Both the position numbers and the translations under genes were made by a program. The notes beneath the pieces were generated by a model that did not search any database, was not told the origin of the DNA, and was given only the letters and a program-made list of their open reading frames with translations. This document shows, one piece after another, positions 12,775-32,050 of a stretch of 64,000 bases of DNA. The stretch is from Pontibacter sp. FD36 (GTDB lineage: Bacteria; Bacteroidota; Bacteroidia; Cytophagales; Hymenobacteraceae): contig NZ_JADPMP010000011.1 of NCBI RefSeq assembly GCF_015686655.1, forward strand, positions 124,001 through 188,000. The letters run 5' to 3'. Position 1 is the first letter of the stretch; every line of letters starts with the position of its first letter.

Positions 12775-14274
12775 CTATGGGTTCTGCTCAGCATTAGGGT
12801 TTGCATCCATCTCGCCTTGCGGGAGCTGGTGGATAAACAGATCAGAGTTGGCAGGAGTTACACCTAGCACAGCGGTGTGGTTACCCTCACGTACCAGTGG
12901 CTTCTGCAGACGCTTGATATCAAACAAGCCAAAGCCTTCGCCGTACAGCTCTTTTCTTCTCTCTACAGAGATCTCTTCCAGGAGCGCATCACCGATAGCC
13001 AGCGTAGGCAGCACAACAGTACCTGCCTCATAACGCTGCTGACGCAGCTCAAGCAGTAACAACTGCGCTTCCACCGGATTGTTCAGTCTTGCCTGCGCCT
13101 CTGCTTCGATCAAAAGCATTTCTGCAGAACGCATCAATGGAATGTGTCCACCCAGGTTAGCCAGGTCTTTGAACTTCGTGATCGTGAAGCGGTCGTAGCT
13201 CCAGATCTTCTCACCTTTGCTGTTAAGCGTAAAGGCTTCTGTATCTTCCTGGAATTCGCGACGTGCGTCATTCTCATCAAACAGCTCTACGAATCTGTCG
13301 TTTGCACGGAAGTTGTTATAACCTCTGCGAACGTACTCGCGGCTTCCGTCTTCCAGCACCTTGTAACGGCCATCAATGAAAGAATGGAATGATGCGTAGG
13401 CGTTGTTCTGGTCAGCAGACTGCGGTAAGCCCCAGATCCACTCTGCGTTGCCATAGTTGTTGAAACCAGCCTGATATTCCGTAGGCGTCATCAGCGGATA
13501 GCCAGTGCGTGCCTTACGAGCAAACTCAGTTGCTTTATCCCACTGGCCCATCTCCAGGTATACCCTGGCCAGCATACCCTGCGCCACATTCTTGTTGATG
13601 CGGCTCTTGCTTGGTCTTGCGCTGGTCAACGCTTGCTCAGCCTCAGTCAGATCAGTCACTATCTGGCTGTATACCTGCTCGAGCGTTGCTCTTTCCTTAC
13701 CTTGAGTTGATGGCGTGGTAGGCTCCAGCATCAGTGGAACAGCCGGTGCATTTTTATCCTTCAGGTAAGTGTGCTGATACACACGCGCCAGGTTGAAGTA
13801 CGAAAATGCTCTGATCACCTTTGCCTCAGCCTCAAATCTTGCTTTCTCCTGCTCAGTGGCATCGCCCAGGTTTTTAGCATTGGCAATGATGCTGTTCGCG
13901 TTCGTGATCAGGTTGTAGGAGTGGCCCCAAAGAATACGGGTACCACGGTAAGTAACCAGCTTGTTATCAAGCTCATACTGGTATACATACCAGTTGGTAT
14001 TGGCCATTACATCCTGTCCCATCACATCGAAGGTCAGCATCAGCGACGGCACACCGTAGCTGTCGTGGCTTACGGCTCCCTGGTTTACCGGTGCCTGGCG
14101 CATCAAACGGATGATACCTGTCAGCGCAGCTTCCATACCTTCTTTGGTAGTGTTTACCTGTTCAGCAGGCACACTGTTAGAAGGCACAGCCTCCAGGAAA
14201 TCTTTCTCGCATGCAGTTAAACTCAGTGTGGCTCCAAGAATAGCTGCAACAAACTTTATATTCTTAATCTTCAT
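12775..14274 (-). CDS. RagB/SusD-family nutrient-binding outer membrane lipoprotein (pair 1)
   Basis: A 499-residue surface lipoprotein that caps the SusC channel and binds the incoming nutrient. It has a lipoprotein signal (lipobox LTAC, cysteine at about 22), then the SusD helical TPR scaffold with NANSIIANAKNLGDATEQEKARFEAEAKVIRAFSYF-type region, and the conserved C-terminal block DALLEEISVERRKELYGEGFGLFDIKRLQ. It lies 22 bases after its susC partner, the usual susC-susD order. It resembles the SusD at 27356 (both end in NANPNxEQNP). Ligand unknown. Confidence 0.93.
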   Translation of the reverse strand: MKIKNIKFVAAILGATLSLTACEKDFLEAVPSNSVPAEQVNTTKEGMEAALTGIIRLMRQAPVNQGAVSHDSYGVPSLMLTFDVMGQDVMANTNWYVYQYELDNKLVTYRGTRILWGHSYNLITNANSIIANAKNLGDATEQEKARFEAEAKVIRAFSYFNLARVYQHTYLKDKNAPAVPLMLEPTTPSTQGKERATLEQVYSQIVTDLTEAEQALTSARPSKSRINKNVAQGMLARVYLEMGQWDKATEFARKARTGYPLMTPTEYQAGFNNYGNAEWIWGLPQSADQNNAYASFHSFIDGRYKVLEDGSREYVRRGYNNFRANDRFVELFDENDARREFQEDTEAFTLNSKGEKIWSYDRFTITKFKDLANLGGHIPLMRSAEMLLIEAEAQARLNNPVEAQLLLLELRQQRYEAGTVVLPTLAIGDALLEEISVERRKELYGEGFGLFDIKRLQKPLVREGNHTAVLGVTPANSDLFIHQLPQGEMDANPNAEQNP

Positions 14275-14296: not shown

Positions 14297-17200
14297 TTAC
14301 AGAGTTGCACGCACCCCTACCGATACAGTTTTCTGTGTTGGGAAGCGGCTGTTTGTGATACCATCGATGCTTTGCTCTGGATCCAGGCCTGGCGTTTTGA
14401 ACAACGTCCACAGGTTGTCACCCTGTACAAAGATTCTGGCATTCTTCAGGCCAACTTTATCCTGCAGGTTCTGAGGTAGTGTATAGCCCAGCGTCACGTT
14501 ACGCAGACGCAGGTAGGAAGCATCTACCAGGAATCTGGATGAGTTAGCGTTCGTGTTCAGCGCCTGTGCAGTTCCTAATCTTGGCACATCTGTGTTCGTG
14601 TTCTCAGGTGTCCATCTGTTCATGATGTCTGTGTGCCAGTTGGTTCCGCGTCTGTCACCACCGTGCATCAGGTTGCTGTAGTCTGTGTTCAGTATCTCAC
14701 CACCAACGCTGTAAGTGAAGAACACGCTCAGGTCGAAGTTTCTGTAAGCAAAGTTATTTGTCACACCACCTGTCAGATCTGGCAGCGCAGTGCCCACATA
14801 GTAGCGGCTTGCTTCGTTGTAGTTAGATGTAGTTACTTTATCAACCACATTACCTTCAGCATCTTTTACGTCTTTGTACCACATGCTCAGACCAGTGTTT
14901 GGATCAACACCAGCAAAATCCTGGATAAAGAAGTCGTAGATAGAACGGCCTACTTTCAGCTGCTTTGTACCCATCAGGATAGTTTCCTGTGGCAGCTCTG
15001 TCAGCTCGTTTCTATTGTGTGCAGCGTTGATGTTAGCAGACCATGTGAAGTCTCCTTTGTCGATCAATCTGGCATCCACATTCAGTTCCACACCTCTGTT
15101 ACGCATGGCTCCCAGGTTGTCAAACACTGACGTGAAACCAGTTGAAGGAGACAGCGGCTTGTTGAACAACAGGTCCTTGGAAGTTCTGCTGTAGTAGTCG
15201 AAGGAAACATCCAGTCTGTCGAAGATTGTCGCGTCGATACCTACGTTAAAGGCAGCCTGCTTTTCCCATGAAAGCACACGGTTCTCAAGTTTGTCCAGGA
15301 TGATACCAGGAGCACCCAGGTCACTGTAGCCTGAGGTATACAGGCCTCTGTAAGCGTAGTAGTCTACACCGCCACCAGAAGTCAACAGACCTTCGTTACC
15401 GGAAGTACCGTAGCTGGCACGAATCTTAGCATCGTTTACCCATGGCAGTGCGCTCATGAAATCTTCCTGCGTAATTCTGTATGAACCACCGATAGAGAAG
15501 AAGTTACCCCAACGGTTGTCTGCATGGAAACGGGAAGAACCGTCACGACGGAAAGAGCCAGACAGGTAGTACTTGTCCATGAAGTTGTAGTTAACCTGAC
15601 CCAGGTAGCTCATCAGCGAGCGTCTGTCAGACTGGCTGCTCAAATCAGTGATAGTCGAAGCATTGTCCAACTCAGTATAGCCAGGCAGTGCCAGGAAGTT
15701 GGTTTTCTGACCATACATGTAGTCGTACTTGTAATTGAATGCCTCAAAACCACCCAAGGCGTCGATCTGGTGCTGACCAAATGCTTTGCTGTAGCTCAAG
15801 ATGTGGTTGATGGTGTACTCTACGAAAGAGCTTCTCCACTGCGTACCACGACCGCCTACACCGGCACCGTCACCAAAGTTCGGGTTGTAGAACGTGAAGT
15901 CCTTGGTGTTGTCGCCTGTCAGCGCAAAAGTAGTTTTGTATTTCAGGTCAAGCGGAAGGGTAACTTCACCGAAGGTATTCAGGCTCCAGGTAAGCACATT
16001 GCGCTTCAGCATGTCCAGTTCTGTTGTACCTACCGGGTTGCTGTTGCCACCGTAAGGACGGGTTGCGTTGAAGTCGAACTCAGATGGGTTGTTGATAAAT
16101 GTACCATCAGCACTTCTTCTTCTGTAGATTGGGTACACAGATCCAATGTTTCTACCCCATGATACCACGTTTCTGAAAGAGGTACCGCTGGAAGTAGGGG
16201 CATTCTGGTCTGTATTAGCGATCAGGGCATTTACGCCAAACTTGATCTTGTCGGTAACCTGTGAGCTTACGCGCAGACGTGAGGTATAACGCTTAAAGCC
16301 GGATGTGATGAAAGCACCTTCCTGATTCAGGTAATTACCAGAGAAGTAGTAGTTGGTTTTGTCGCTACCACCCTGGATACCGAAATCGTACTCCTGACGG
16401 GTAGCCTTTCTGTAAAGGGCATCTCTCCAGTCGTCTTCCCAGGCAGGGGTAAGTCCAGCTTTCAGTCTACCGTCAAGGCCTACTGGCTCTGCATCGTTGT
16501 ATGGGTTGTACTGCTGGCCATTTGCTGACCCGCCTGCGATCTGGCTTACTACTGACTTGGTTGCATACTCCTCTGGAGAAGCAAACTTGCCTTGCCACAG
16601 AGTTTTGTTCGCATTTGCATCATTGCGCAGTGCTTCCCAGGTCAGTTCATAGAACTGTTGCGGATTAACTGTTTCATAATCTTTTACAGCAAAGTCAGAG
16701 ATACCATAAGTAGCGCCGAAGGTGATAGTTGGCTTCTTAGGTGCGTTACCGCCTTTTGTAGTGATTACCACTACACCGTTGGCGGCACGTGAACCGTAAA
16801 GAGCAGCAGCACTTGCATCTTTCAGTACTGTCATCGACTCGATGTCGTTCGGGTTAATGGCATTCAGGTCACCAGAGTAAGGTGCGCCATCCACTACGTA
16901 AAGCGGAGTAGAAGAAGAGGCAACTGAACCGATACCGCGGATACGGATCTGACCGGTAGAACCTGGCTGACCGCTGTTCTGCACAACCTGTACACCTGGG
17001 GTTAAACCACCCAGCGCTTTGGTCACGTCGTTCACCTGCAGTTTCTCAATCGATTCTGACTTGATAGCGGAAGCGGAACCCGTAAATGATTTCTGATCCG
17101 CAGTACCGTAGGCAACTACCATTACTTCAGACAGTGTTTTGCTGTCTTCCTGTAGCTGTACATTGATTGTAGTGCGACCAGTCGTGCTAATTTCCTGCTT

Positions 17201-17440
17201 AACATAACCCAAGTAGGAAACTATCAGGGTAGCATCGTCTCCGTTCACGTTCACGGTGAAGTCACCTTCCACTCCTGTGTACGTTCCTACGGTAGTACCT
17301 TTCACTGCCACACCTACACCTGGTAGTGGTTGTCCTGTCCCAGCATCGGTTACCCGACCTGAGATGGTTCGGCTTTGCGCCTACGCCTAGCTCACCAGGG
17401 CGAACAACATTACCAAGCCCATAAATAGAACTTTTCTCAT
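14297..17440 (-). pseudogene. SusC/RagA TonB-linked outer membrane receptor with two in-frame TAG codons in the signal peptide (pair 1)
   Basis: The family start is the ATG at 17438-17440 (MRKVLFMGLVMLFALVS), a normal signal peptide, but codons 18 and 20 are TAG (17387-17389 and 17381-17383) where paralogues have residues such as Q. The frame then continues intact as AQSRTISGRVTDAG, a carboxypeptidase-D-like domain, the LSEVMVVAYGTADQKS linker, a plug domain and a complete barrel of about 1000 codons. Restart at the internal ATG at 17309-17311 would give a protein with no signal peptide and part of the first domain missing, which could not reach the outer membrane. It is therefore called a recent pseudogene; a sequencing error or amber read-through are the alternatives. 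Confidence 0.75.
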
Positions 17441-18021: not shown

Positions 18022-20424
18022 TTACTTTTTCAGATTCTCTTCGAAGAGTTTGTAGATACGCTTGTATTCGTCAGTCCAGCTGGCTGGCTCCGTAAAGCCG
18101 TGGTCTTCTACCGGATACACAGCCAGTTCCCAATTGTCCTTGCCCAACTCGATCAGGCGCTGGGTCAGGCGTACCACGTCCTGGAAATGTACGTTGGTAT
18201 CCACCATGCCGTGGCAAATCAGGAGCGCACCCTTCAGGCCTTCCGCGTAGTAGATTGGCGAGCTTTTGGCATAAGCCAGGCTATCGAGCTGCGGTACGTT
18301 CAGAATGTTGGAGGTATAGCCGTGGTTGTAGTGAGCCCAGTCTGTAACTGAACGCAAGGCCGCACCAGCTGCAAATACATCCGGCTCCGTGAACATGGCC
18401 ATCAGCGTGATGAATCCGCCATAAGAACCTCCATAAATACCGATGCGCTTCGGATCTACGTTATACTTGTCTGCAAGCAGCTTGGCACCATCTACGTGGT
18501 CGCTCAGGTCTTTGCCACCCATAAACTGATAGATGCCGGTGCGTACGTCACGGCCGTAACCGGCGCTGCCGCGATAATCAATGTCCAGTACGGTATAGCC
18601 GTTGTCGGCCAGGAAGTTGTGGAACATGTACTCTCTGAAATAAGAGCTCCACCACTTGTGCGCATTCTGCAGATAGCCGGCGCCGTGTACAAAGATCACA
18701 GCTGGTCCATTGGCCACTGCCTTCTCCGGACGATACAAGCGGGCATACACGTCTTCTCCGTCACTCGCCTTAAAGCTGATTACTTCCGGTTCACGCCAAT
18801 TGTAAGACTTAAACTCATCAGTAAGCGATGATGTCACCTGACGTGGCTTCGCTCCTTTTTTGTTATCCTGCACATACAGCTCCCATGGCTTGTTGCTGTA
18901 AGAGTAGCGTATGGCCATTGTCTTCTCATCCGGTGACAGGGTCACCTCGTGTGCGCCTGTTCCAGAGGTCAGCTGGGTCATCTCCCCGCCATTAATCGGC
19001 ATTCTATAGAAATGCTTCTCGCCTGGGTGTACTTTGTTTGCCGTGAAATACCAGCTCTTCTTGTCTTTGGAGATTTGAGGACCAGACACTTCAAACTTAC
19101 CACTTGTGAGTGCTTTCTTGCTGCCATTGTTCAGGTTCACCGCATAGAGGTGTGAGTAACCGCTTTCTTCTGACTGGAACCACACATGCTCATTGTCTGG
19201 CATGAAACCGATATCACCGGTGCCGTAGCCTATACCTGGTCCATTGATCCAGGCTTCGTCGCGCTGCCGGTCGAGTGTGCTCAGTTTGCCAGTGGCAGGA
19301 TCTACTTTCAGTATCCAACGGTCTTTGTTGTCGGCTGCGCGCGCTACCATCACGGCATGCTTTCCATTGTCTGACCAGATAGGGCCGAACATAGTCACAG
19401 CGCGTGCTTCTGGTTTAGCAGTTTTGGTAGCTGGCTCTTTAGCGGTGCTTGCTTTTGTATCGCGATCGCGGATATAAGCAGGCTGATCATTTATACCTTC
19501 AATGCTGCCTACCTGCAGCGCATAGGTCGTGTCGCGGCTGATGTCATACACAAACGACTCAAAGGTTGCTTGCGCATCTCCTACTTTGGTGCGGGTGTTG
19601 ATATCCTCGGTATACCCTGATGAAGTCACGAAATCTGGCACGATAGCGACCTTGGCATTTTTAGGTCTTGTAGCTGTGCGGTAGCTGATGTAGCGCTCGT
19701 CCGGACTCAGCACGATGTTATCAACCGACTTATCACCGATGTAAATTTCTTTCGGGCGGGCCGGGCTATCGGCTTTCTGCTGCTTTTTGGCGGCTTCCTT
19801 GTCTGCTTCACGCTCGCGCACGATCTGTAGCAAAGCTAGCTGCTGCTCTTTCAGCCACTCACGCTGTGGATTCTTGCCCTCTTCTCCTGGCTTGCTGCCT
19901 TTTTTGAAGTCGGTCAGCTGCGCCAGCTGGCCATTGGAAATTGTCCACAGGTATAAGTTGCCATCTTTCACAAATGCTACCTTTTTCTCGTCGTGACTGA
20001 ACGATGGGCTATTTTCTCGCTCTACAGTATTGGTGATCTGCTGCGTTTTGCCACTTTTGACATCGAGCAAATAGATGTCACCGTTCTTCTCGTATACCTT
20101 CTGCGTTTTGGCTCTGTTATAGCGTGCATTCCAGGTTGCTGGCAGGGCACGGCGTTCCTGCGGGCTTACCTTCTGCAGGTTGCCGCCGTTTGCTGACACA
20201 CTGTAAAGTGAGTCTTTGCGGTTAGCATCAGGGTTCCAGCTGAAGTAGATCTTCTTGCCATCCTCTGACCAGAACACATTGCTGGGCGAGGTGCCGATCC
20301 AGGTTGGATCACGCATGATCTTCTCCACACTCAGCTTGCTGCTGTTTTCCTGCGCCTGCACAGCGGTACCACCAGCCAGTACAAGCCAGGACATCAGGAG
20401 GAGGGCTTTCTTCTTAAGAAGCAT
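18022..20424 (-). CDS. S9-family prolyl oligopeptidase / dipeptidyl peptidase, secreted
   Basis: An 800-residue serine peptidase that removes short peptides in the periplasm. It has a signal peptide (about 1-24, ending AVQAQ), an N-terminal beta-propeller built of WD40-like TolB repeats (for example NTVERENSPSFSHDEKKVAFVKDGNLYLW), and a C-terminal alpha/beta-hydrolase domain. The catalytic triad is readable as S667 in GGSYGG, D741 in HGMVDTNVH and H775 in EDHGFTEP. A charged insertion of about 25 residues (EEGKNPQREWLKEQQLALLQ) lies in the propeller. It sits between susC-susD pairs 1 and 2, next to an amidase, so it may process peptides for uptake; this is an inference from context. Confidence 0.93.
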   Translation of the reverse strand: MLLKKKALLLMSWLVLAGGTAVQAQENSSKLSVEKIMRDPTWIGTSPSNVFWSEDGKKIYFSWNPDANRKDSLYSVSANGGNLQKVSPQERRALPATWNARYNRAKTQKVYEKNGDIYLLDVKSGKTQQITNTVERENSPSFSHDEKKVAFVKDGNLYLWTISNGQLAQLTDFKKGSKPGEEGKNPQREWLKEQQLALLQIVREREADKEAAKKQQKADSPARPKEIYIGDKSVDNIVLSPDERYISYRTATRPKNAKVAIVPDFVTSSGYTEDINTRTKVGDAQATFESFVYDISRDTTYALQVGSIEGINDQPAYIRDRDTKASTAKEPATKTAKPEARAVTMFGPIWSDNGKHAVMVARAADNKDRWILKVDPATGKLSTLDRQRDEAWINGPGIGYGTGDIGFMPDNEHVWFQSEESGYSHLYAVNLNNGSKKALTSGKFEVSGPQISKDKKSWYFTANKVHPGEKHFYRMPINGGEMTQLTSGTGAHEVTLSPDEKTMAIRYSYSNKPWELYVQDNKKGAKPRQVTSSLTDEFKSYNWREPEVISFKASDGEDVYARLYRPEKAVANGPAVIFVHGAGYLQNAHKWWSSYFREYMFHNFLADNGYTVLDIDYRGSAGYGRDVRTGIYQFMGGKDLSDHVDGAKLLADKYNVDPKRIGIYGGSYGGFITLMAMFTEPDVFAAGAALRSVTDWAHYNHGYTSNILNVPQLDSLAYAKSSPIYYAEGLKGALLICHGMVDTNVHFQDVVRLTQRLIELGKDNWELAVYPVEDHGFTEPASWTDEYKRIYKLFEENLKK

Positions 20425-20462
20425 AATAGATATTGTGTTTTAGATTAGGTTGTAGTTAAAGA

Positions 20463-20495
20463 TAAAATTAAGCTTTAAAACTCAAACTTGCCAAA
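20463..20495 (-). promoter_or_regulatory. Candidate promoter of the S9 peptidase gene
   Basis: Read on the minus strand: TTTG (20492-20495), 21 bases, then TAATTTTA (20463-20470), one mismatch from the phylum consensus TAnnTTTG. It lies 39 bases before the start codon. Confidence 0.55.
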
Positions 20496-20531
20496 CAGAG
20501 CATCCTCTTCTTAACGGAGAGGAGTTATACC

Positions 20532-22217
20532 TTACTTACTGCTGCTAAGCGCCATTGGCGGATGTTGCTCGTCAAAGTTTGTCAGGTCCTGGTATAGCTT
20601 AGCCAGAGCCAGCACCTTGGCTTCGCCATACAGCTTTCCCATAAAGGTGATCGTGGTAGGCATCCCGTTCTTCTGGAAACCATTGGGCAGCACCACACAT
20701 GGATGACCGCTCAGGTTTGTCATCACCAGGTTACTGCCTGCATAAGATGGACTCAGGTACACATCTATACCTTTCAGTTTCTCGTGCATCTGCTGTATGA
20801 TGAGTGAGCGTACTCGCTGGGCCTGCAGATACTCCACGGCGGTAACAAAGCGTCCAGCCCTGAAGATATTTGGCCAAGCGTTCTTATGCTGCTGCACCAT
20901 CATACTGTCACGGCCGCTTCGCGTCAGTTCATCGAAAGCGGCTGCTCCTTCCACCGAGATCGTCATGGTCAGGTCACGCGCTGGCAGATTTGGCAGTTCA
21001 ATTGGCACGAGCTCTATACCTTCTTTTCGGAGTGCCTCCAGTGTGGCTTTATCATTCTCCTTGAAAGGATAGTCCCGTTCGAAGTCTTTCTGCAGATAGC
21101 CTACCCGCAGCTTACGCACATCAATGTTCTTATTGTAGTTGAAAGGAGCGTCCACAATGGTCAGGTCTTTTCCGTCCGGGCCATGAATGGCATTGAACAC
21201 AATGGCGCAGTCTTCAGCGGAGCGGGCGATTGGTCCAATCTTATCCATAGACCAGCTCAGCGCCATGGCTCCATGTCGGCTCACACGGCCAAAGGTAGGA
21301 CGCAGTCCTGTGGTACCGCAGGCAGTGGAAGGTGACACGATGGAGCCAAGGGTCTCTGTTCCGATCGCAAAAGGCAGTAAACCCGCGGCCACTGCTGCAG
21401 CTGATCCGGCTGAGGAGCCGCTTGAACCTTTGTTTAAATCCCAGGGTGACCGTGTTTTACCTCCATACCATACATCACCCATTGCCAGTTCGCCTAATGT
21501 CAGTTTAGCTACCAACACAGCTCCAGCATGCTCGAGCCGCTCCACAACAGTAGCGTCCAGGTCAATCTGCTGGTCTTTGTAAGGAACAGAGCCCCATGTG
21601 GTCTTGTACCTCTTTGTAGCCAGCAGGTCTTTCACACCATAAGGTATACCGTGGAGCATGCCTCTGTACTTTCCGGCCTTTATCTCCTGGTCTGCGCGTC
21701 TGGCTTGCTCCAGTGCCAGCTCCTCTGTCAGGCTGGTCACACATTGCAAGGTAGGCCCGTGCTGCTTCAACCGATCCAGGTAGAATCTGGTGAGTTCCTC
21801 TGAGCTGATCTGCCGTGTACGTACCAATTCAGCCAGTTGCGGTACCGAGTAAAAAGCGAGGTCCTCTCTGTTTGCTGGCAGTTTTATACCTTTCCGGCGC
21901 TCTACTTCAAACTTCTCCCGCTTCTGCTCAAATTCAAACCCCACAGGTATAGGATTAAATTGTAAAGCAGGCGCTACATCGTTTGACAAGGGTTGTTCTC
22001 TGATGCGCTGGTAGCTGCTCCTGAACTCAGCGACGTTTGCTGTAGCGGAATCCAGTTGCGCATCCGTAAACTTCAGCCCAATCATTTGCTGTGCATTCCG
22101 AAGCACATCCACGGTGATCTTATCATCAGCCAGTTTTGAGATAAAGGCACCTGACAGGAAGCAGACTCCATATAAGCATAACTTGTAATGAAATGTTTTA
22201 TAAGCCATATTATGCAT
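20532..22217 (-). CDS. Amidase (amidase-signature family), exported
   Basis: A 561-residue amidase-signature enzyme that hydrolyses a C-N amide bond. The Ser-cisSer-Lys machinery is present: K196 in GIPYGVKDLLAT, the glycine/serine signature GSSGSSAGSAAAVAAG (about 264-279) and the nucleophile S292 in TETLGSIVSPS. A hydrophobic N-terminus (about 12-28) suggests export or membrane anchoring, unlike the cytoplasmic GatA of transamidosomes, and there is no gatB/gatC nearby. An N-terminal extension of about 100 residues precedes the domain. The Met at codon 4 (MAYKTFH) is an equally good start. It follows susD2 on the same strand after a very long hairpin. Confidence 0.88.
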   Translation of the reverse strand: MHNMAYKTFHYKLCLYGVCFLSGAFISKLADDKITVDVLRNAQQMIGLKFTDAQLDSATANVAEFRSSYQRIREQPLSNDVAPALQFNPIPVGFEFEQKREKFEVERRKGIKLPANREDLAFYSVPQLAELVRTRQISSEELTRFYLDRLKQHGPTLQCVTSLTEELALEQARRADQEIKAGKYRGMLHGIPYGVKDLLATKRYKTTWGSVPYKDQQIDLDATVVERLEHAGAVLVAKLTLGELAMGDVWYGGKTRSPWDLNKGSSGSSAGSAAAVAAGLLPFAIGTETLGSIVSPSTACGTTGLRPTFGRVSRHGAMALSWSMDKIGPIARSAEDCAIVFNAIHGPDGKDLTIVDAPFNYNKNIDVRKLRVGYLQKDFERDYPFKENDKATLEALRKEGIELVPIELPNLPARDLTMTISVEGAAAFDELTRSGRDSMMVQQHKNAWPNIFRAGRFVTAVEYLQAQRVRSLIIQQMHEKLKGIDVYLSPSYAGSNLVMTNLSGHPCVVLPNGFQKNGMPTTITFMGKLYGEAKVLALAKLYQDLTNFDEQHPPMALSSSK

Positions 22218-22276: not shown

Positions 22277-22356
22277 ACTAATATTTTTTACTATTTCAAC
22301 AAAAAAGGCCGTCTTTTCAGACGGCCTTTTTTGTTGAAATAGTAAAAAATATTAGT
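22277..22356 (-). terminator. Very long perfect terminator hairpin overlapping the susD2 stop codon
   Basis: Bases 22277-22314 are the exact reverse complement of 22319-22356 (38 bp, loop TTTC), with core AAAAAAGGCCGTCT / AGACGGCCTTTTTT. The susD2 TAA at 22352-22354 lies in the stem. Because the arms carry both A-runs and T-runs it can terminate in either direction. Confidence 0.9.
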
Positions 22357-23797
22357 AACCAGGATTCGGTACTAATGATGGATTAATGTCTAGCTCTCTT
22401 TGAGGAATTGGAAGAATTGTTAAATCTCCACCAAATACAGCTTTGCTGGCGCCTTCCCCATTTGTTTTAAGAGGTTTTTTATATCTAAGTAGGTCCATTC
22501 GGCGTAGGCCTTCGAATGCTAACTCCTTACGTCTTTCATCAAGTATCGCCTCAACCAAGCCATTCAAATTAGAAAATGATTCAACTGTATAAGGCGCTAA
22601 TCCAGCTCTAACTCTTAATCTGTTAAGTAGTTGTATTGATTCAGATGCACCTGACACCGTTGTTGCCTGCTTCGCTATTGCCTCAGCTAAAGTAAGAACT
22701 ACCTCTGTAGTACGAATAATAGGAGCGTTATCTGCATTATTTACTGCATCAGGGTATTTAGTAGTGAATGTGTAGGTACCACCATCAGCACCTACTCCTA
22801 CGGAGCTTAGCGATGAAAGACGTTTATCACCAGTTTCGTATGATGCTAAAAATTCCGGCGAAAAAGCAGCATCACCTCTGCCACCGTTTGCAGCAGGTCG
22901 GTAATATGATGCGAGTCCACCACTTCCTGTACGACCGTTGTCAATAGCAGAGTTCTGAATTGTAAACACATCCTCAGAAGTATTCGCATTATAGAAAGAG
23001 TAGTCTGTAGCCAAGTTGTAAGAACCGTTATTTAAGACAGTTCTTGCATTTTGCTCTGCTTGGGACCAGTTCTCTCTATATAAATATAGTCTGGATAGCA
23101 GGGCTTGAGCAGCTCCAACTGTTGCTCTGCCGCGTGCCTCCGAAGGATCACCAAAATCAGCAGCATTTTTAAGGGCTGGAATGGCCTCCTGCAGATCTTT
23201 CTCGATCTGAGCATGAACTTGGTTTAGGGTAGCTCTTTCAGGATAAGTAATTTCACCTGAGAAAGCATCTAACACTAATGGTACTGACAGATTATCCCCT
23301 CCACTGAACTGGTAGGGCTGAGAAAAGAAATTGGACATCTGAAAATAAAGCAACGCTCTTATAAACTTCGCTTCAGCAACTACTTGAGCTTTTTCAGCAT
23401 CTGTGAAACCTTGGTCCACAACAGTTGGCACCTTCGCAATAACATTATTAGCTCTTGTAATCGCTCTGTAGTGAACTTGCCATAGTGCTTGTATACTGGA
23501 ATTTGCACCTACAATGTTAAAGTTTTGGATTTCTTGTAAAGTAGGGAAAGATCCAATAAACTGAACGTTATCTGCGTGGAAGTCTCCAATGATATGAGAC
23601 AATCCTCCAAAGATTTCGTAGTTCTGAGTTGTACTATATACACCAAACAAAGAACTCATGGCGGCAGCCTCGTTCTTGAAAGCAGATTCCTCTGTTAAGT
23701 CCTGCTCAGGCCTTAATTCATTAAGTTTATCCTCGCAAGCGAAAAGCCCTAATGCCAAGGAAAACCCTAATGCTTTTAATATATGTTTCTTATTCAT
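22352..23797 (-). CDS. RagB/SusD-family nutrient-binding outer membrane lipoprotein (pair 2)
   Basis: A 481-residue SusD-like lipoprotein. The signal ends in lipobox LFAC with the cysteine at residue 21, followed by EDKLNELRPEQDLTEESAFKN. The SusD helical core (RANNVIAKVPTV, KAQVVAEAKFIRALLYFQMSNFF) and the C-terminal block AILDERRKELAFEGLRRMDLLRYKK are clear. It starts 22 bases after susC2. Codon use is AT-richer than most genes in the window. The end of the coding region is buried in a 38-bp hairpin. Confidence 0.93.
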   Translation of the reverse strand: MNKKHILKALGFSLALGLFACEDKLNELRPEQDLTEESAFKNEAAAMSSLFGVYSTTQNYEIFGGLSHIIGDFHADNVQFIGSFPTLQEIQNFNIVGANSSIQALWQVHYRAITRANNVIAKVPTVVDQGFTDAEKAQVVAEAKFIRALLYFQMSNFFSQPYQFSGGDNLSVPLVLDAFSGEITYPERATLNQVHAQIEKDLQEAIPALKNAADFGDPSEARGRATVGAAQALLSRLYLYRENWSQAEQNARTVLNNGSYNLATDYSFYNANTSEDVFTIQNSAIDNGRTGSGGLASYYRPAANGGRGDAAFSPEFLASYETGDKRLSSLSSVGVGADGGTYTFTTKYPDAVNNADNAPIIRTTEVVLTLAEAIAKQATTVSGASESIQLLNRLRVRAGLAPYTVESFSNLNGLVEAILDERRKELAFEGLRRMDLLRYKKPLKTNGEGASKAVFGGDLTILPIPQRELDINPSLVPNPGY

Positions 23798-23819: not shown

Positions 23820-26804
23820 TTAGAATGTTAGGTTAACACCGCCTGTGATTGATCGTGGCTGTGGTAGAGCAAAGAAAGATTCACCTGCCACTAGGTTAGA
23901 GCCTCCGTTAGCTGAAACTTCTGGGTCTGGACCTCTGAAATCTTTTGATGTTAAAGTCCAAATATTTTGTGCCATAACATAAATGCGAGCTGAAGAAAGC
24001 ACTTTGCTTTTGCTCACAATATTCTCCGGAAGAGTATAACCAAGGGTTACATTTTTCAATCTCAAGTATGAGCCATCCTGCAGATGAAGTGTAGACAACT
24101 GCGCGAAGTTTGGAAGAGTTGGGCTATTAAGCGCTGGAGCAAATGCATTTCTATTTTCAGGAGTCCAGTAGTTTAGGAGGTCGGTACTCTTATTATATGC
24201 ACTTGTCATGTTTTCAGTAAAGCGTAGACCATCAATTAGGACTTTATTTCCATAAGAGAAATTAAAGAATGTATTAAGATCAAATGACTTGTATCTGAAT
24301 CTGTTAGTGAAACCGCCTGTAAAGTCTGGTATTGCGCTACCTACGACAACGCGATTTGCGCTTGAGTAAGTTGTTGTCACATTACCATCTTTATCCAGCC
24401 ATTCAGCATTGCCAGTTTCGGGGTTGATACCAACATATCTAACTAGATAGAATGTATTCAGACTCTCTCCCTCAATAGCACGCTGTGCAGAACTTCCTGA
24501 AATAAAGTTTCTTCCTTCTGGATCTTTGTTATCAGGTAATGAAAGCATTTCATTCTTTAAGAAGCCCATGTTTAATGAAGTTGTCCACTCAAAATCTGCA
24601 GTTTTGATATTTCTGCTTGTCAGCATCAAGTCAAGTCCACGATTTCTCATCTCACCTACGTTTCTAGTAGCACTGGCAAAACCTGTTGTATAAGGATAAG
24701 GTTGGCTAGCTAGCAGGCTTATCGTATTTTTTTCGTAAATACTTGCCTCAATATCAAAACGGTCAAACACAGTTGCGTTCAAAGTAACGTCTAGCTGAGC
24801 AGTTTCTTCCCATCTTAAATCTGGGTTAGGAACAGTAGTTGGAATCAAACCAGATTTACCGTTGTAATCGGCTCCACTACCGCCGGCGAACAGCCCTAGG
24901 TACGCGAAGTTACCAATCCTATCGTTACCTGAAGTACCATAGCTAGCCTTTAGCTTTAGGAAATTTAGGAAGCTTACATTTTGCAGGAAGCTTTCTTCTG
25001 ATAAGATCCAACCAGCAGCTACGGCGTAGAATGTACCATATTTATTGTTTGCGCCAAATCTAGAGGAACCATCTCTACGCAAAGTACCCTCTAATAGGTA
25101 TCTGCTGTTATAATCGTAACTCACACGACCAAAATATGACTCAAGTGCCCACTCAGAACCTGTAGCACTTGTTGTAAGAGGTGTACTTGCTGAACCCACG
25201 TTTGGTAAATCATCACTCGCAAAACCAGAACCTTCTACCAGCATGTTATCCATGCGCGAAGTTTCAAAGCTATGTCCTGCTAATACACCAATCGTATGTC
25301 CGTTAAAAAACTTATTGTAGTTTAACGTGTTAGTAGTTAACCACTTATTATCAGCAATGTTTGACCTGTAACCATAACCACCTGGACTAAGGATATCTGG
25401 ATCACGGTATTTAGAATCTGACTCAACAAAGTCTATACCCCAGTCTGATCTAAATTTGAAATCTTTCAGGAATGTTACTTCAGCAAAGACGTTACCAGTG
25501 CTCCTTACTAAATTGTAATCATTTCTAGTAAGTGCATCTTGTGCTATTGAATTCACAATAAATCCTGTGTTTTGGAAATTTCCGTCAGGACCGTATGGCG
25601 TAACCCAAGGGCTTTGCAGATAAGCACCAGTTAATGGAGCAGCAGTACTGTTTTCAACGCCCACACGTCGCATGTCAGAGTTTGACATACTATAATTCAC
25701 ACCTACCTTAACATTTTCAGATACATTGTGCGCCAGATTAAATCGCCCGGAAAGTTTTTTCAACTCGTTACCAATAGTAAAACCTGTTTCATCAGAATAG
25801 AGGCCACCAATGAAGAAAGTAGTTTTATCATTCCCTCCTCTAGCAGAAAGGCTATAAGAGTTTATGCTACCCTTCTGAGTTACTCCGTCTACCCAATCAT
25901 ACGAATCTACTCCGTTACCAAAGCTAGGTACCGCAGTTCCTCTTGCTTTTGCAACATCTGTTCTGAATGTTCTATACTCCTCAGCGGACATATACTTAAG
26001 CTGGTTTGTTGCTTCAGATACACCTGTAAAATAGTCGAAGTTAACCTGTGTTTTTTGTCCTTTTGAACCAGATTTGGTAGTGATCAACACTACACCATTA
26101 GCACCTCTTGAGCCGTAAATAGCAACAGCTGCTGCATCTTTCAATACACTCATAGATTCGATATCATTAGGGTTGATATTGATTAGAGGATTAAGAGCAG
26201 CGCTACCACCTTGGTCAGATGCAGTATAACTTCCATCATTTAAAGGAACTCCATCAACCACATAAAGTGGCTGACCGCCAGCAGTAATTGAGGAAGTACC
26301 TCTAACTCGTACATTTGCTGCTGCTCCCAATACACCTGAAGAGTTGGTCATTTGAACACCCGCAGCCTGTCCCTGTAGCAATTGTTGTGGGCTGGTCAAT
26401 GGGGTATCTTTAAAGGACAATGCATCTACAGTAGCAACCGATTGAGTACTAACTCTTTGGTTTTGAGTACCATAACCAACGACCACTACTTCAGACAATT
26501 GTTTATTATCCAGTTCAAGTGAAACATTCACGTTATTATTATTTCCGACAGCTACTTCTCTTGTGAGATAGCCAATATAACGGAAAACAAGCGTGTTGCC
26601 ATCTCCTGCCACGTTAACACTAAATGAACCGTCTGCATTAGTTGCTGTACCAGTAGTGGTACCCTTAACAACTACAGATACCCCAGGAAGAGGTACTCCG
26701 TCCCCTGCCCCTGTAACTTTACCTGTTATTGTCCGACTCTGTGCCGCTACTTGGCCCAAAAGCGCAAACAAAAACAAGAAGTTAAGTAGTAATACTTTCT
26801 TCAT
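23820..26804 (-). CDS. SusC/RagA-family TonB-linked outer membrane receptor (pair 2)
   Basis: A 994-residue TonB-dependent barrel that imports the ligand delivered by its SusD partner. In order: signal peptide (about 1-21, GQVAAQ), carboxypeptidase-D-like domain (about 22-105, ITGKVTGAGDGVPLPGVSVVVKGTTTGT), the LSEVVVVGYGTQNQR linker typical of SusC, a plug domain (PLYVVDGVPLND, GSRGANGVVLITTKSG) and a beta barrel ending in the aromatic terminal strand SITGGVNLTF. The first ~110 residues and the promoter are nearly identical to those of susC3 at 28835, while the barrels differ. It is AT-rich compared with the flanking genes. Confidence 0.95.
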   Translation of the reverse strand: MKKVLLLNFLFLFALLGQVAAQSRTITGKVTGAGDGVPLPGVSVVVKGTTTGTATNADGSFSVNVAGDGNTLVFRYIGYLTREVAVGNNNNVNVSLELDNKQLSEVVVVGYGTQNQRVSTQSVATVDALSFKDTPLTSPQQLLQGQAAGVQMTNSSGVLGAAANVRVRGTSSITAGGQPLYVVDGVPLNDGSYTASDQGGSAALNPLININPNDIESMSVLKDAAAVAIYGSRGANGVVLITTKSGSKGQKTQVNFDYFTGVSEATNQLKYMSAEEYRTFRTDVAKARGTAVPSFGNGVDSYDWVDGVTQKGSINSYSLSARGGNDKTTFFIGGLYSDETGFTIGNELKKLSGRFNLAHNVSENVKVGVNYSMSNSDMRRVGVENSTAAPLTGAYLQSPWVTPYGPDGNFQNTGFIVNSIAQDALTRNDYNLVRSTGNVFAEVTFLKDFKFRSDWGIDFVESDSKYRDPDILSPGGYGYRSNIADNKWLTTNTLNYNKFFNGHTIGVLAGHSFETSRMDNMLVEGSGFASDDLPNVGSASTPLTTSATGSEWALESYFGRVSYDYNSRYLLEGTLRRDGSSRFGANNKYGTFYAVAAGWILSEESFLQNVSFLNFLKLKASYGTSGNDRIGNFAYLGLFAGGSGADYNGKSGLIPTTVPNPDLRWEETAQLDVTLNATVFDRFDIEASIYEKNTISLLASQPYPYTTGFASATRNVGEMRNRGLDLMLTSRNIKTADFEWTTSLNMGFLKNEMLSLPDNKDPEGRNFISGSSAQRAIEGESLNTFYLVRYVGINPETGNAEWLDKDGNVTTTYSSANRVVVGSAIPDFTGGFTNRFRYKSFDLNTFFNFSYGNKVLIDGLRFTENMTSAYNKSTDLLNYWTPENRNAFAPALNSPTLPNFAQLSTLHLQDGSYLRLKNVTLGYTLPENIVSKSKVLSSARIYVMAQNIWTLTSKDFRGPDPEVSANGGSNLVAGESFFALPQPRSITGGVNLTF

Positions 26805-28834: not shown

Positions 28835-31800
28835 TTATAAAGTTACGTTTAAGCCTAATGAAAGCACTCGTGCCGGGGTGTAGGAGTTGGATGTAACACC
28901 AGTAAATGACTGTCCTACGTTCATCCCTTTGCGAGCCGAGAATAGATGCAAGTTCTCGCCAGAAGCGTAAATTCTAGCATTTTGAATTGAGAATCTTGAT
29001 GAAATTGAACTTGGTACGCTATAAGTCAGAGTAGCATTTCTAATGTTCAGGTAAGATGCATCAACCAACCAGCGATTAGATGTTCCCGCAGCGAAATCTG
29101 GTGCATTGCTTACATCAAGTCTCGGCACATTTGTGTTTGGGTTCTCAGGAGTCCATCTGTTTAGGATGTCGCTATGAAGAGCACCGCCATACTGAGCGCC
29201 ATGTGTCATCAATGTAGCATAAGATCCATCATACATTTTACCTCCTACCTGATAGGTAGCTAGAATTGACAAGGAGAAGTTTTTATACCTGAATGTATTT
29301 GTGATACCACCTGTAAAATCAGGGATGGCACTTCCTGAGTAATCAAATCTTGCATTATTTACAGATGTAGTTACAGTGTCACCATTTGCAAGAATTTTGC
29401 TATTAGTCGGGTTATATGTCTCAGCCAAGTATAATGGATTACCATTTTCAGGGTCAACACCATACCACTGACGCAGCCAATAAGCATACAAATCTTTACC
29501 TTCTTTCAGCTTTTTCGTTCCGCTGATAATTTCCTCCTGCCCTTCTGGCATTTTAGTAATGCGGTTTTTCAAAGCAGTCCAGTTAAAATCGACATTCCAT
29601 CCGAAATCATCGCGCTCAATAACATCTGCTGACAACTGTACTTCAACACCTCGGTTGTACATAGTTCCTATGTTCAGGTTACGATCAAGTACACCACTTG
29701 AAACCGGAAGAGGAACACGGAAGAGCATGTTTGAAGACTGTCTGTTGAAGAACTCGATGTGACCATTTAGCTTACTAAACAGAGCAAAATCTAATCCAAC
29801 ATCGAAGCTGCCACTAGACTCCCATGTAAGATTTGGTGAAGCAAGATTAGAAAGCAGGAATCCTGGCTCAGCACCATTATTAAAGCCCGGTCCACTACCA
29901 TATAAACCTTGAGAAGGATAATATTCCAGCGACCCGCCTGATGTTAGAACACCGTCATTACCAACTTCACCATACGAAGAACGGAGTTTCAGCATATTAA
30001 CCCACTCAGGCATTGTGATAAATGTCTCGTTGTCAATTCTCCAGGCACCACCAATAGACCAGAAGTTACCCCAACGCACACTATTGTCAAACTTAGAGGA
30101 ACCATCACGGCGGAATGAAGCAGATACAGTATACTTATTATCAAAGTTGTAATTCACTCGAGAAAAATAACTTTCAATTCTATGCTGTAGTTTATACCCT
30201 CTAAGGCTGTTTACAGAAGCAAAATTGTCTAATTCAATATTGCCAGCTAATACTTCGCCTTGGCGGAACCCATAGTTATAATTGTAGTTATAGTCATAAT
30301 TCTCGTGACCAACCAAAACATCTACATTATGTTTATCTCCAAATGTATTAGCGTATGACAATAATTGGTTAAGTGTATAGCTAGATGTCGTGGTAAGTGT
30401 TCTGCTAGCACGTCCAGCAGGAGCACCATCACCTACAAGAGTATTTTGATAAGAAATACCTTCGTAATTAGTAATATCACCTGCCAGGTTGGTTCTGAAT
30501 TTAAAGTTATTCAAGAAAGATATTTCTGCGAACGTCCTAGCGCTTAATACATTACGCTTAACCTGCTCTTCGTTTAGCTGAGTTTCTGCTACAACATGCC
30601 TTCCTGGGCTCGCACCTGCCGGGCGGTTTGGCAAACCCAATTCATTCATATTACCCAAGTCGTAAATTTTGTTGCCAGCCTCATCAAGAATAAACTCGCC
30701 TGTCTCAGGTTTCTGTGCATAAACCGGGAAGATTGGCCCCATGGTTCTTGCGAAATAGAAAGGGTTAACATAACCTGAGGAGCTTTCATCAGATGCCTGA
30801 TTAGACTGCGTAATATTTCCTGACAGGTTTAATCCTGTGCTGAGCCATTTCTTTGGAGAAGCATTCAAGTTAACACGGCCAGTAAAACGCTCGTAGTCAG
30901 ATCTAGTTACAAATCCTTTCTCATTAAGATAACCAAGTGACACAAAGTAGTCACTCTTGTCTGATCCTCCATTTAAGGTTACCGCGTAGTCTCCACGAGA
31001 GCCTGTTCTTGAAAGCGGTTCAAACCAGTCCAAATCTTTTTCGCTGTAGATGAGCCGTGCATCAGGGTTCAGTGTACCATCCTGCATTACGATCTGATCA
31101 TTAGGCACGTTAAAAGGATTATAACCCAAGTTATTGTAGATACTATTGATTCTATTACCGTTAGCAGCTGTACCGCCAATAGAGGCAATCCGGTTTGCAT
31201 CTTCCAATGATCTAGTACCTGAGTAATGCATGCTGTTTCTGTAAGCCTCCCATGCTAATGGGTAATACTGATATGCATTTACACGATCGTATTCTGGTAG
31301 AGCCCTTGTTACTACACCTTGGAGGGCTTTAAAACTTACTTCATTACGGTTTTTAGTACCTCTCTTCGTTGTGATCATTACAACACCATTAGCAGCACGT
31401 GAACCATAAAGTGATGTAGAAGAAGCATCTTTCAGAACCGTAATATCAGCTATATCTTCTGGATTCAGGTTGCCTAAGGTCCCAGAGTATGGCACACCAT
31501 CCACAACGTACAGTGGCGTATTTGAAGAGTTTACAGAACTTATACCTCTGATACGAATAGCTGGTCCCTCACCAGGCTGTCCGCTACCAGAATTAGTTTG
31601 CACACCCGCGATTTGGCCAGCAACAGCATTAGATATATTGGTCACTGGACGCTGTGCGATCTTTTCTACTGTAACTTGACCAGCAGAACCCACAAATGAT
31701 CCTTTATCTGCAGTACCATAAGCTACAACTACAACTTCTGATAACTGCTTATCATCTAGTTCTAGCACCACATTAATAGAAGCATTTGTACCAATCGCCA

Positions 31801-32050
31801 CCTCTTTCGCTACGTATCCAATATAGCGAAACACTAGCGTGTTCGCACCATCAGGCACGTTAACACTGAACGAACCATCTGCATTAGTTGCTGTACCTGT
31901 GGTGGTGCCTTTTACTATTACAGAGACTCCTGGCAGGGAAGCTCCGTCCCCTGCCCCTGTAACTTTACCTGTTATTGTCCGACTCTGCGCCGCTACTTGG
32001 CCCAAAATTGTAAACAAAAACAAGAAGTTAAGTAGTAATACTTTCTTCAT
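28835..32050 (-). CDS. SusC/RagA-family TonB-linked outer membrane receptor (pair 3)
   Basis: A 1071-residue SusC-type importer: signal peptide (GQVAAQ at about 17-22), carboxypeptidase-D-like domain, the linker LSEVVVVAYGTADKGSF, plug domain (RIRGISSVNSSNTPLYVVDGVPYSG, YGSRAANGVVMITTKRG) and a barrel that ends RVLSLGLNVTL. The linker and plug resemble SusC1 (AYGTADQKSF), while the first ~110 residues and the leader match SusC2. It therefore looks like a mosaic of the other two. AT-rich. Directly followed by susD3. Confidence 0.95.
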   Translation of the reverse strand: MKKVLLLNFLFLFTILGQVAAQSRTITGKVTGAGDGASLPGVSVIVKGTTTGTATNADGSFSVNVPDGANTLVFRYIGYVAKEVAIGTNASINVVLELDDKQLSEVVVVAYGTADKGSFVGSAGQVTVEKIAQRPVTNISNAVAGQIAGVQTNSGSGQPGEGPAIRIRGISSVNSSNTPLYVVDGVPYSGTLGNLNPEDIADITVLKDASSTSLYGSRAANGVVMITTKRGTKNRNEVSFKALQGVVTRALPEYDRVNAYQYYPLAWEAYRNSMHYSGTRSLEDANRIASIGGTAANGNRINSIYNNLGYNPFNVPNDQIVMQDGTLNPDARLIYSEKDLDWFEPLSRTGSRGDYAVTLNGGSDKSDYFVSLGYLNEKGFVTRSDYERFTGRVNLNASPKKWLSTGLNLSGNITQSNQASDESSSGYVNPFYFARTMGPIFPVYAQKPETGEFILDEAGNKIYDLGNMNELGLPNRPAGASPGRHVVAETQLNEEQVKRNVLSARTFAEISFLNNFKFRTNLAGDITNYEGISYQNTLVGDGAPAGRASRTLTTTSSYTLNQLLSYANTFGDKHNVDVLVGHENYDYNYNYNYGFRQGEVLAGNIELDNFASVNSLRGYKLQHRIESYFSRVNYNFDNKYTVSASFRRDGSSKFDNSVRWGNFWSIGGAWRIDNETFITMPEWVNMLKLRSSYGEVGNDGVLTSGGSLEYYPSQGLYGSGPGFNNGAEPGFLLSNLASPNLTWESSGSFDVGLDFALFSKLNGHIEFFNRQSSNMLFRVPLPVSSGVLDRNLNIGTMYNRGVEVQLSADVIERDDFGWNVDFNWTALKNRITKMPEGQEEIISGTKKLKEGKDLYAYWLRQWYGVDPENGNPLYLAETYNPTNSKILANGDTVTTSVNNARFDYSGSAIPDFTGGITNTFRYKNFSLSILATYQVGGKMYDGSYATLMTHGAQYGGALHSDILNRWTPENPNTNVPRLDVSNAPDFAAGTSNRWLVDASYLNIRNATLTYSVPSSISSRFSIQNARIYASGENLHLFSARKGMNVGQSFTGVTSNSYTPARVLSLGLNVTL

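Follow-up and report, generated by a model that had tools for sequence, protein, structure and literature searches.

Two neighbouring nonsense codons in the signal peptide of a Pontibacter SusC-type transporter gene, probably a very recent pseudogene

Recent nonsense pseudogenes of bacteria typically have early stops in a frame that is otherwise intact, and their orthologues and partner genes are intact as well. The SusC-type gene described here, susC1, follows this pattern, but differs in that its two stops are neighbours and form a perfect 6-base tandem repeat. Members of the SusC/RagA family (NCBIfam TIGR04056) have a full-length profile match, Plug and CarboxypepD_reg-like domains and a neighbouring SusD gene; susC1 has all of these, and departs from the family by two nonsense codons in its signal peptide. 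RagAB-type importers, as far as excerpts of two papers describe them (PMC11817032, PMC7782687), are the same SusCD-type pair as susC1 and its partner susD1, and protein uptake is proposed for RagAB in these excerpts.

The window, that is, the whole 64,000-nucleotide stretch of DNA that we analysed, covers positions 124001-188000 of contig C2 (232 kb) in a draft genome of 38 contigs and 4.84 Mb. On its minus strand, susC1 (14297-17440) starts with an ATG at 17440 and closes with a TAA ending at 14297; profile matches and full-length orthologues identified it as a gene for a SusC/RagA-type TonB-dependent outer-membrane transporter. TIGR04056 matched with 842.9 bits (cut-off 368.25) over profile positions 1-980 of 981, and Plug (PF07715) and CarboxypepD_reg-like (PF13715) were both above their cut-offs. 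The N-terminus reads MRKVLFMGLVMLFALVS, TAG, A, TAG, then AQSRTISG. As the sequence-only reading of this DNA had reported, both TAGs lie in a 6-base repeat of the signal peptide with an open frame behind them: codon 18 (17389-17387, minus strand) and codon 20 (17383-17381, minus strand) are TAG within TAGGCG TAGGCG, the perfect tandem repeat TAGGCGTAGGCG (17378-17389), and the frame is open from there to its TAA, giving a 1047-residue protein when translated through both stops. A translatable signal peptide is needed for outer-membrane export, and this region of susC1 (17375-17440, minus strand) is broken by the stops at codons 18 and 20; the corresponding region in P. lucknowensis (locus L033) is MRKVLFMGLVMLFALVSQAWAQ.

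Comparison with relatives showed that the stops were absent from 7/7 distinct Pontibacter orthologues. In each of these, codons 18-22 encode Gln-Ala-Trp-Ala-Gln; codon 18 is CAG or CAA, and codon 20 is TGG. Six of 11 named-record loci were taken as orthologues (P. lucknowensis DM9, Pontibacter sp. HSC-14F20, P. chinhatensis, P. arcticus, P. ummariensis and P. anaerobius), together with genome G021, and their DNA identity to susC1 was 76-95%; the alignment figures of HSC-14F20 (92.0% DNA identity) were equal to those of genome G008. The other five loci (30-41% protein identity) were set aside, and the only Pontibacter among them, P. aydingkolensis, likewise had no stop at that place. The P. lucknowensis DM9 gene was full length and stop-free, with 97.4% protein and 94.8% DNA identity to susC1, and read QAWA vs stop-Ala-stop-Ala in the window; residues 1-40 were the same in both except at the two stops. 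Its gene order also matched that of the window (amidase, S9 peptidase, susC, susD, PAP2 on the other strand, metK).

The changes on the window lineage were CAG to TAG (C>T) at codon 18 and TGG to TAG (G>A) at codon 20, seven bases apart. Because the orthologues carry QAWAQ at equal length, the TAGGCG TAGGCG repeat is the product of both substitutions and not of a duplication. Two C-to-T changes, or one change plus a 6-base duplication, had been put forward from the window alone; an origin of either kind, from SQAQAQ or by duplication, was ruled out by QAWAQ in the orthologues, where codon 20 is Trp and calls for G>A. Without orthologues, the origin of a stop seen in a single genome can thus be misjudged, as here at codon 20, which was Trp and not Gln.

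We also searched the genus for similar stops. A start-pattern search returned 23 places, of which one was susC1 of the window and one (in genome G033) was not a SusC; the remaining 21, which are SusC-like signal peptides from elsewhere in the genus, were read, and 0/21 had a stop. The motif TAGGCGTAGGCGCAR matched in 2/41 Pontibacter genomes, and its recurrence as a stop motif was rejected, as the second match sits inside a long open frame and is read differently. A loose pattern (start plus TAGGC) matched only susC1 in its own genome, where the reversed control also gave one match.

Nineteen SusC genes of the genome scored over the TIGR04056 cut-off. The 18 other than susC1 (including locus L052), read by eye, lacked stops from their start up to the matched domain, which bears out the sequence-only reading that the paralogues are free of stops at this place. 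That reading had also described the partner gene as intact, correctly so: susD1 (12775-14274, minus strand; PF14322 and PF07980), a SusD-family gene with a TAG stop, is open and 98.8% identical to its P. lucknowensis counterpart, and its window branch shows 17 synonymous changes and 2 missense changes. A TIGR04056 survey of 41 genomes, in which ~15 candidates were scored per genome, the best matches were listed and signal peptides lay outside the profile, yields no base rate of signal-peptide stops, since the profile reports susC1 itself as stop-free. Among the best matches listed, one Pontibacter SusC match (genome G027, C29:167361-170366) had one internal TAG, so nonsense lesions of the SusC family may occur elsewhere in the genus.

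To date the loss, we assigned changes to branches by parsimony, using P. lucknowensis and HSC-14F20 as the two relatives and dropping 17 ambiguous sites. The window branch of susC1 carried 59 synonymous changes, 16 missense changes and 2 stops, and the P. lucknowensis branch 58, 12 and 0, respectively; no difference in missense:synonymous changes was shown between the branches (16:59 vs 12:58, Fisher P = 0.54). Under a simple model, which ignores recombination, ~3% of the window branch was free of constraint, with an upper limit of ~11.5%. By this sequence comparison the part of susC1 beyond the stops still looks constrained, so the loss, if real, would be very young; jointly, these figures suggest either a very recent loss or stops that are a sequence error.

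Divergence along the gene was uneven. Codons 230-335 (16436-16753, minus strand), which follow the plug domain, had 85.5% identity to P. lucknowensis and to HSC-14F20 alike, compared with 95-97% identity to P. lucknowensis outside this patch; with 26 synonymous and 7 missense changes, the patch is probably a recombination import. For codons 790-810 (15011-15073, minus strand), subtraction left 6 missense changes and 1 synonymous change to the window branch, unlike the remainder of the gene; this short patch could be a variable loop, a second import or a first sign of relaxed constraint. Outside both patches, which were picked by eye after the data had been seen, there were 32 synonymous changes, 3 missense changes and the 2 stops, and no frameshift was found in susC1.

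Taken together, susC1 is probably a very recently inactivated SusC-type transporter gene of a Pontibacter species close to P. lucknowensis. Of the readings offered from the window alone, that of a newly dead gene pair is the best supported, because the orthologues are intact, the remainder of the frame is constrained and susD1 is intact, and that of read-through control is unsupported. Two G:C>A:T transitions, seven bases apart, would have replaced Gln18 and Trp20 of the signal peptide by TAG, so that translation should stop after 17 residues, with no later start that brings a signal peptide. We infer that SusC1 protein is absent, which would leave the outer membrane without SusC1 and SusD1 without its barrel, a lid without a pore. 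A recent nonsense pseudogene of this kind matters little, being turnover in one of 19 full-score SusC-type genes, 18 of which are left. The death of susC1 would be an ordinary event, its sole odd point being that the stops stand side by side. Against a recent pseudogene, neutral decay predicts scattered lesions, whereas two stops one codon apart were seen, with only 3 missense changes outside both patches, no frameshift, and in one genome only. The relaxed constraint that a dead gene should in time display was likewise not seen, either because the loss is too recent or because susC1 is not dead.

The pairing of the stops was therefore weighed against neutral expectation. Among the possible transition-type nonsense pairs of the P. 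lucknowensis gene, 10/2612 fall within two codons, and only 73 single transitions in the ~3140-base gene yield a stop; ~22 missense changes are expected per stop (2.44 vs 0.113 per synonymous change). Because close pairs are this rare and this many missense changes are expected, two independent neutral hits are unlikely and account poorly for the paired stops. Our guess is that one clustered mutation, or a nonsense mutation with misaligned copying between 6-base units, fits better. A clustered event would have made both neighbouring stops at once; alternatively, one nonsense mutation would have arisen and one 6-base unit would then have been copied onto its neighbour (CAGGCG-TGGGCG to TAGGCG-TAGGCG). 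A C>T and a G>A by which two 6-base units became the same resemble a single event, and in this respect the locus is mildly instructive on mutation. Hypermutation of the lineage was rejected, as C:G>T:A changes made up 27/77 on the window branch vs 27/70 on the P. lucknowensis branch, and so was CCWGG methylation as a common cause, since only 1/27 such changes, that of codon 18, fell on the second C of a CCWGG site, unlike that of codon 20. All 8 changes of the window branch from 17483 to 17382 were transitions, and the sister branch had none there; under uniform placement, a 102-base stretch with at least 8 changes appeared in 946/2000 runs and hence is not rare. In the other genomes among 50 of the genus, no donor of the changed start region was found within 2 mismatches.

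In the ranking of explanations, the recent nonsense pseudogene is the most likely and a sequence or assembly error comes second. Under the latter, the living strain would have an intact susC1 and both TAGs would be consensus errors, which we consider unlikely, yet worth taking seriously. An error would fit the constrained look of susD1 and of the remainder of susC1, the placing of both changes within 8 bases, the draft state of the assembly (38 contigs) and the restriction of the stops to this genome among the relatives read. However, the site lies ~141 kb into the 232-kb contig, away from its ends, and two random transitions would rarely both be stops, given the 73 single transitions of this kind. 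The genome also had one full-length copy only, and the next matches within it were short, with identities of 78% or less, so there is no sign of a collapsed duplicate. Selected loss, in which phage, toxin or laboratory culture favoured inactivation, is a variant of the recent pseudogene and compatible with it. Outer-membrane transporters can act as phage receptors, and the loss is very recent and affects susC1 alone among the genes compared; one stop would have been enough, though, and we hold selection to be a rather improbable addition.

Read-through or recoding, by which TAG is decoded at a useful rate and SusC1 serves as a low-level or conditional transporter, would agree with the constrained open frame behind the stops and with TAG being one base away from both the Gln and the Trp codons of the relatives. 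The control by read-through that the sequence-only reading had entertained nevertheless found no backing, and we rate it as very improbable. The amber-suppressor check named there gave a CTA anticodon in 0/40 tRNAs found in the genome (150 of 218 first-look candidates scored), a set in which no tRNA labelled Ile and no Ala-TGC appeared, so some tRNA genes lie outside the assembly or the search; the missing tRNA genes probably sit in rRNA operons. Release factor 1 (prfA) is an open frame of 363 codons (493.6 bits), and TAG is in normal use as a stop: among 35 long, little-overlapping ORFs of the window, 27 ended in TAA, 5 in TAG (including susD1) and 3 in TGA. RNA structure as a read-through signal was rejected, since the surroundings of the stops were unremarkable (z = -1.33; 26/200 shuffles as stable), and no in-frame TAG was conserved in relatives (0/7 orthologues, 0/21 SusC-like signal peptides read). 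The excerpts of the literature matches listed mention neither read-through nor paired stops in SusC signal peptides. Over two serial TAGs, moreover, the loss would multiply. There is a very slim chance that the TAG pair is a functional gate, with a near-cognate tRNA (Gln or Trp) reading UAG rarely, so that a little SusC1 with a functional signal peptide is made; if true, the gate would throttle an outer-membrane transporter at the level of translation, and the intact remainder of susC1 would be explained. A signal peptide supplied by frameshifting or by a different start is scarcely credible, as nothing was found in its support. An upstream start in another frame, which the sequence-only reading had named as an outcome that would overturn its claim, was looked for, and neither of the other two frames encoded a signal peptide running into the mature frame; past codon 20, the first in-frame start is codon 44, already within the mature protein. 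The ATG and the codons that follow differ from those of P. lucknowensis only by one synonymous change and the stops. Just upstream of the ATG, three bases (17451, 17449 and 17445) changed on the window branch.

Ahead of susC1, the stretch 18022-22217 (minus strand), flanked by susCD pairs, contains an S9 prolyl-oligopeptidase-like gene and an amidase gene, in the same order as in P. lucknowensis. Because the neighbours are an S9 peptidase, an amidase and further susCD pairs, this is a possible peptide-uptake cluster, and susC1/susD1 may have served peptide uptake, in line with the proposal for RagAB. The signal peptides of the two susC genes at 23820-26804 and 28835-32050 are almost the same. 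For the susD at 22352-23797, the match in locus L033 of P. lucknowensis was to the susD1 there and reached only 28.8%, so the susCD pair to which it belongs seems to be other than the L033 pair.
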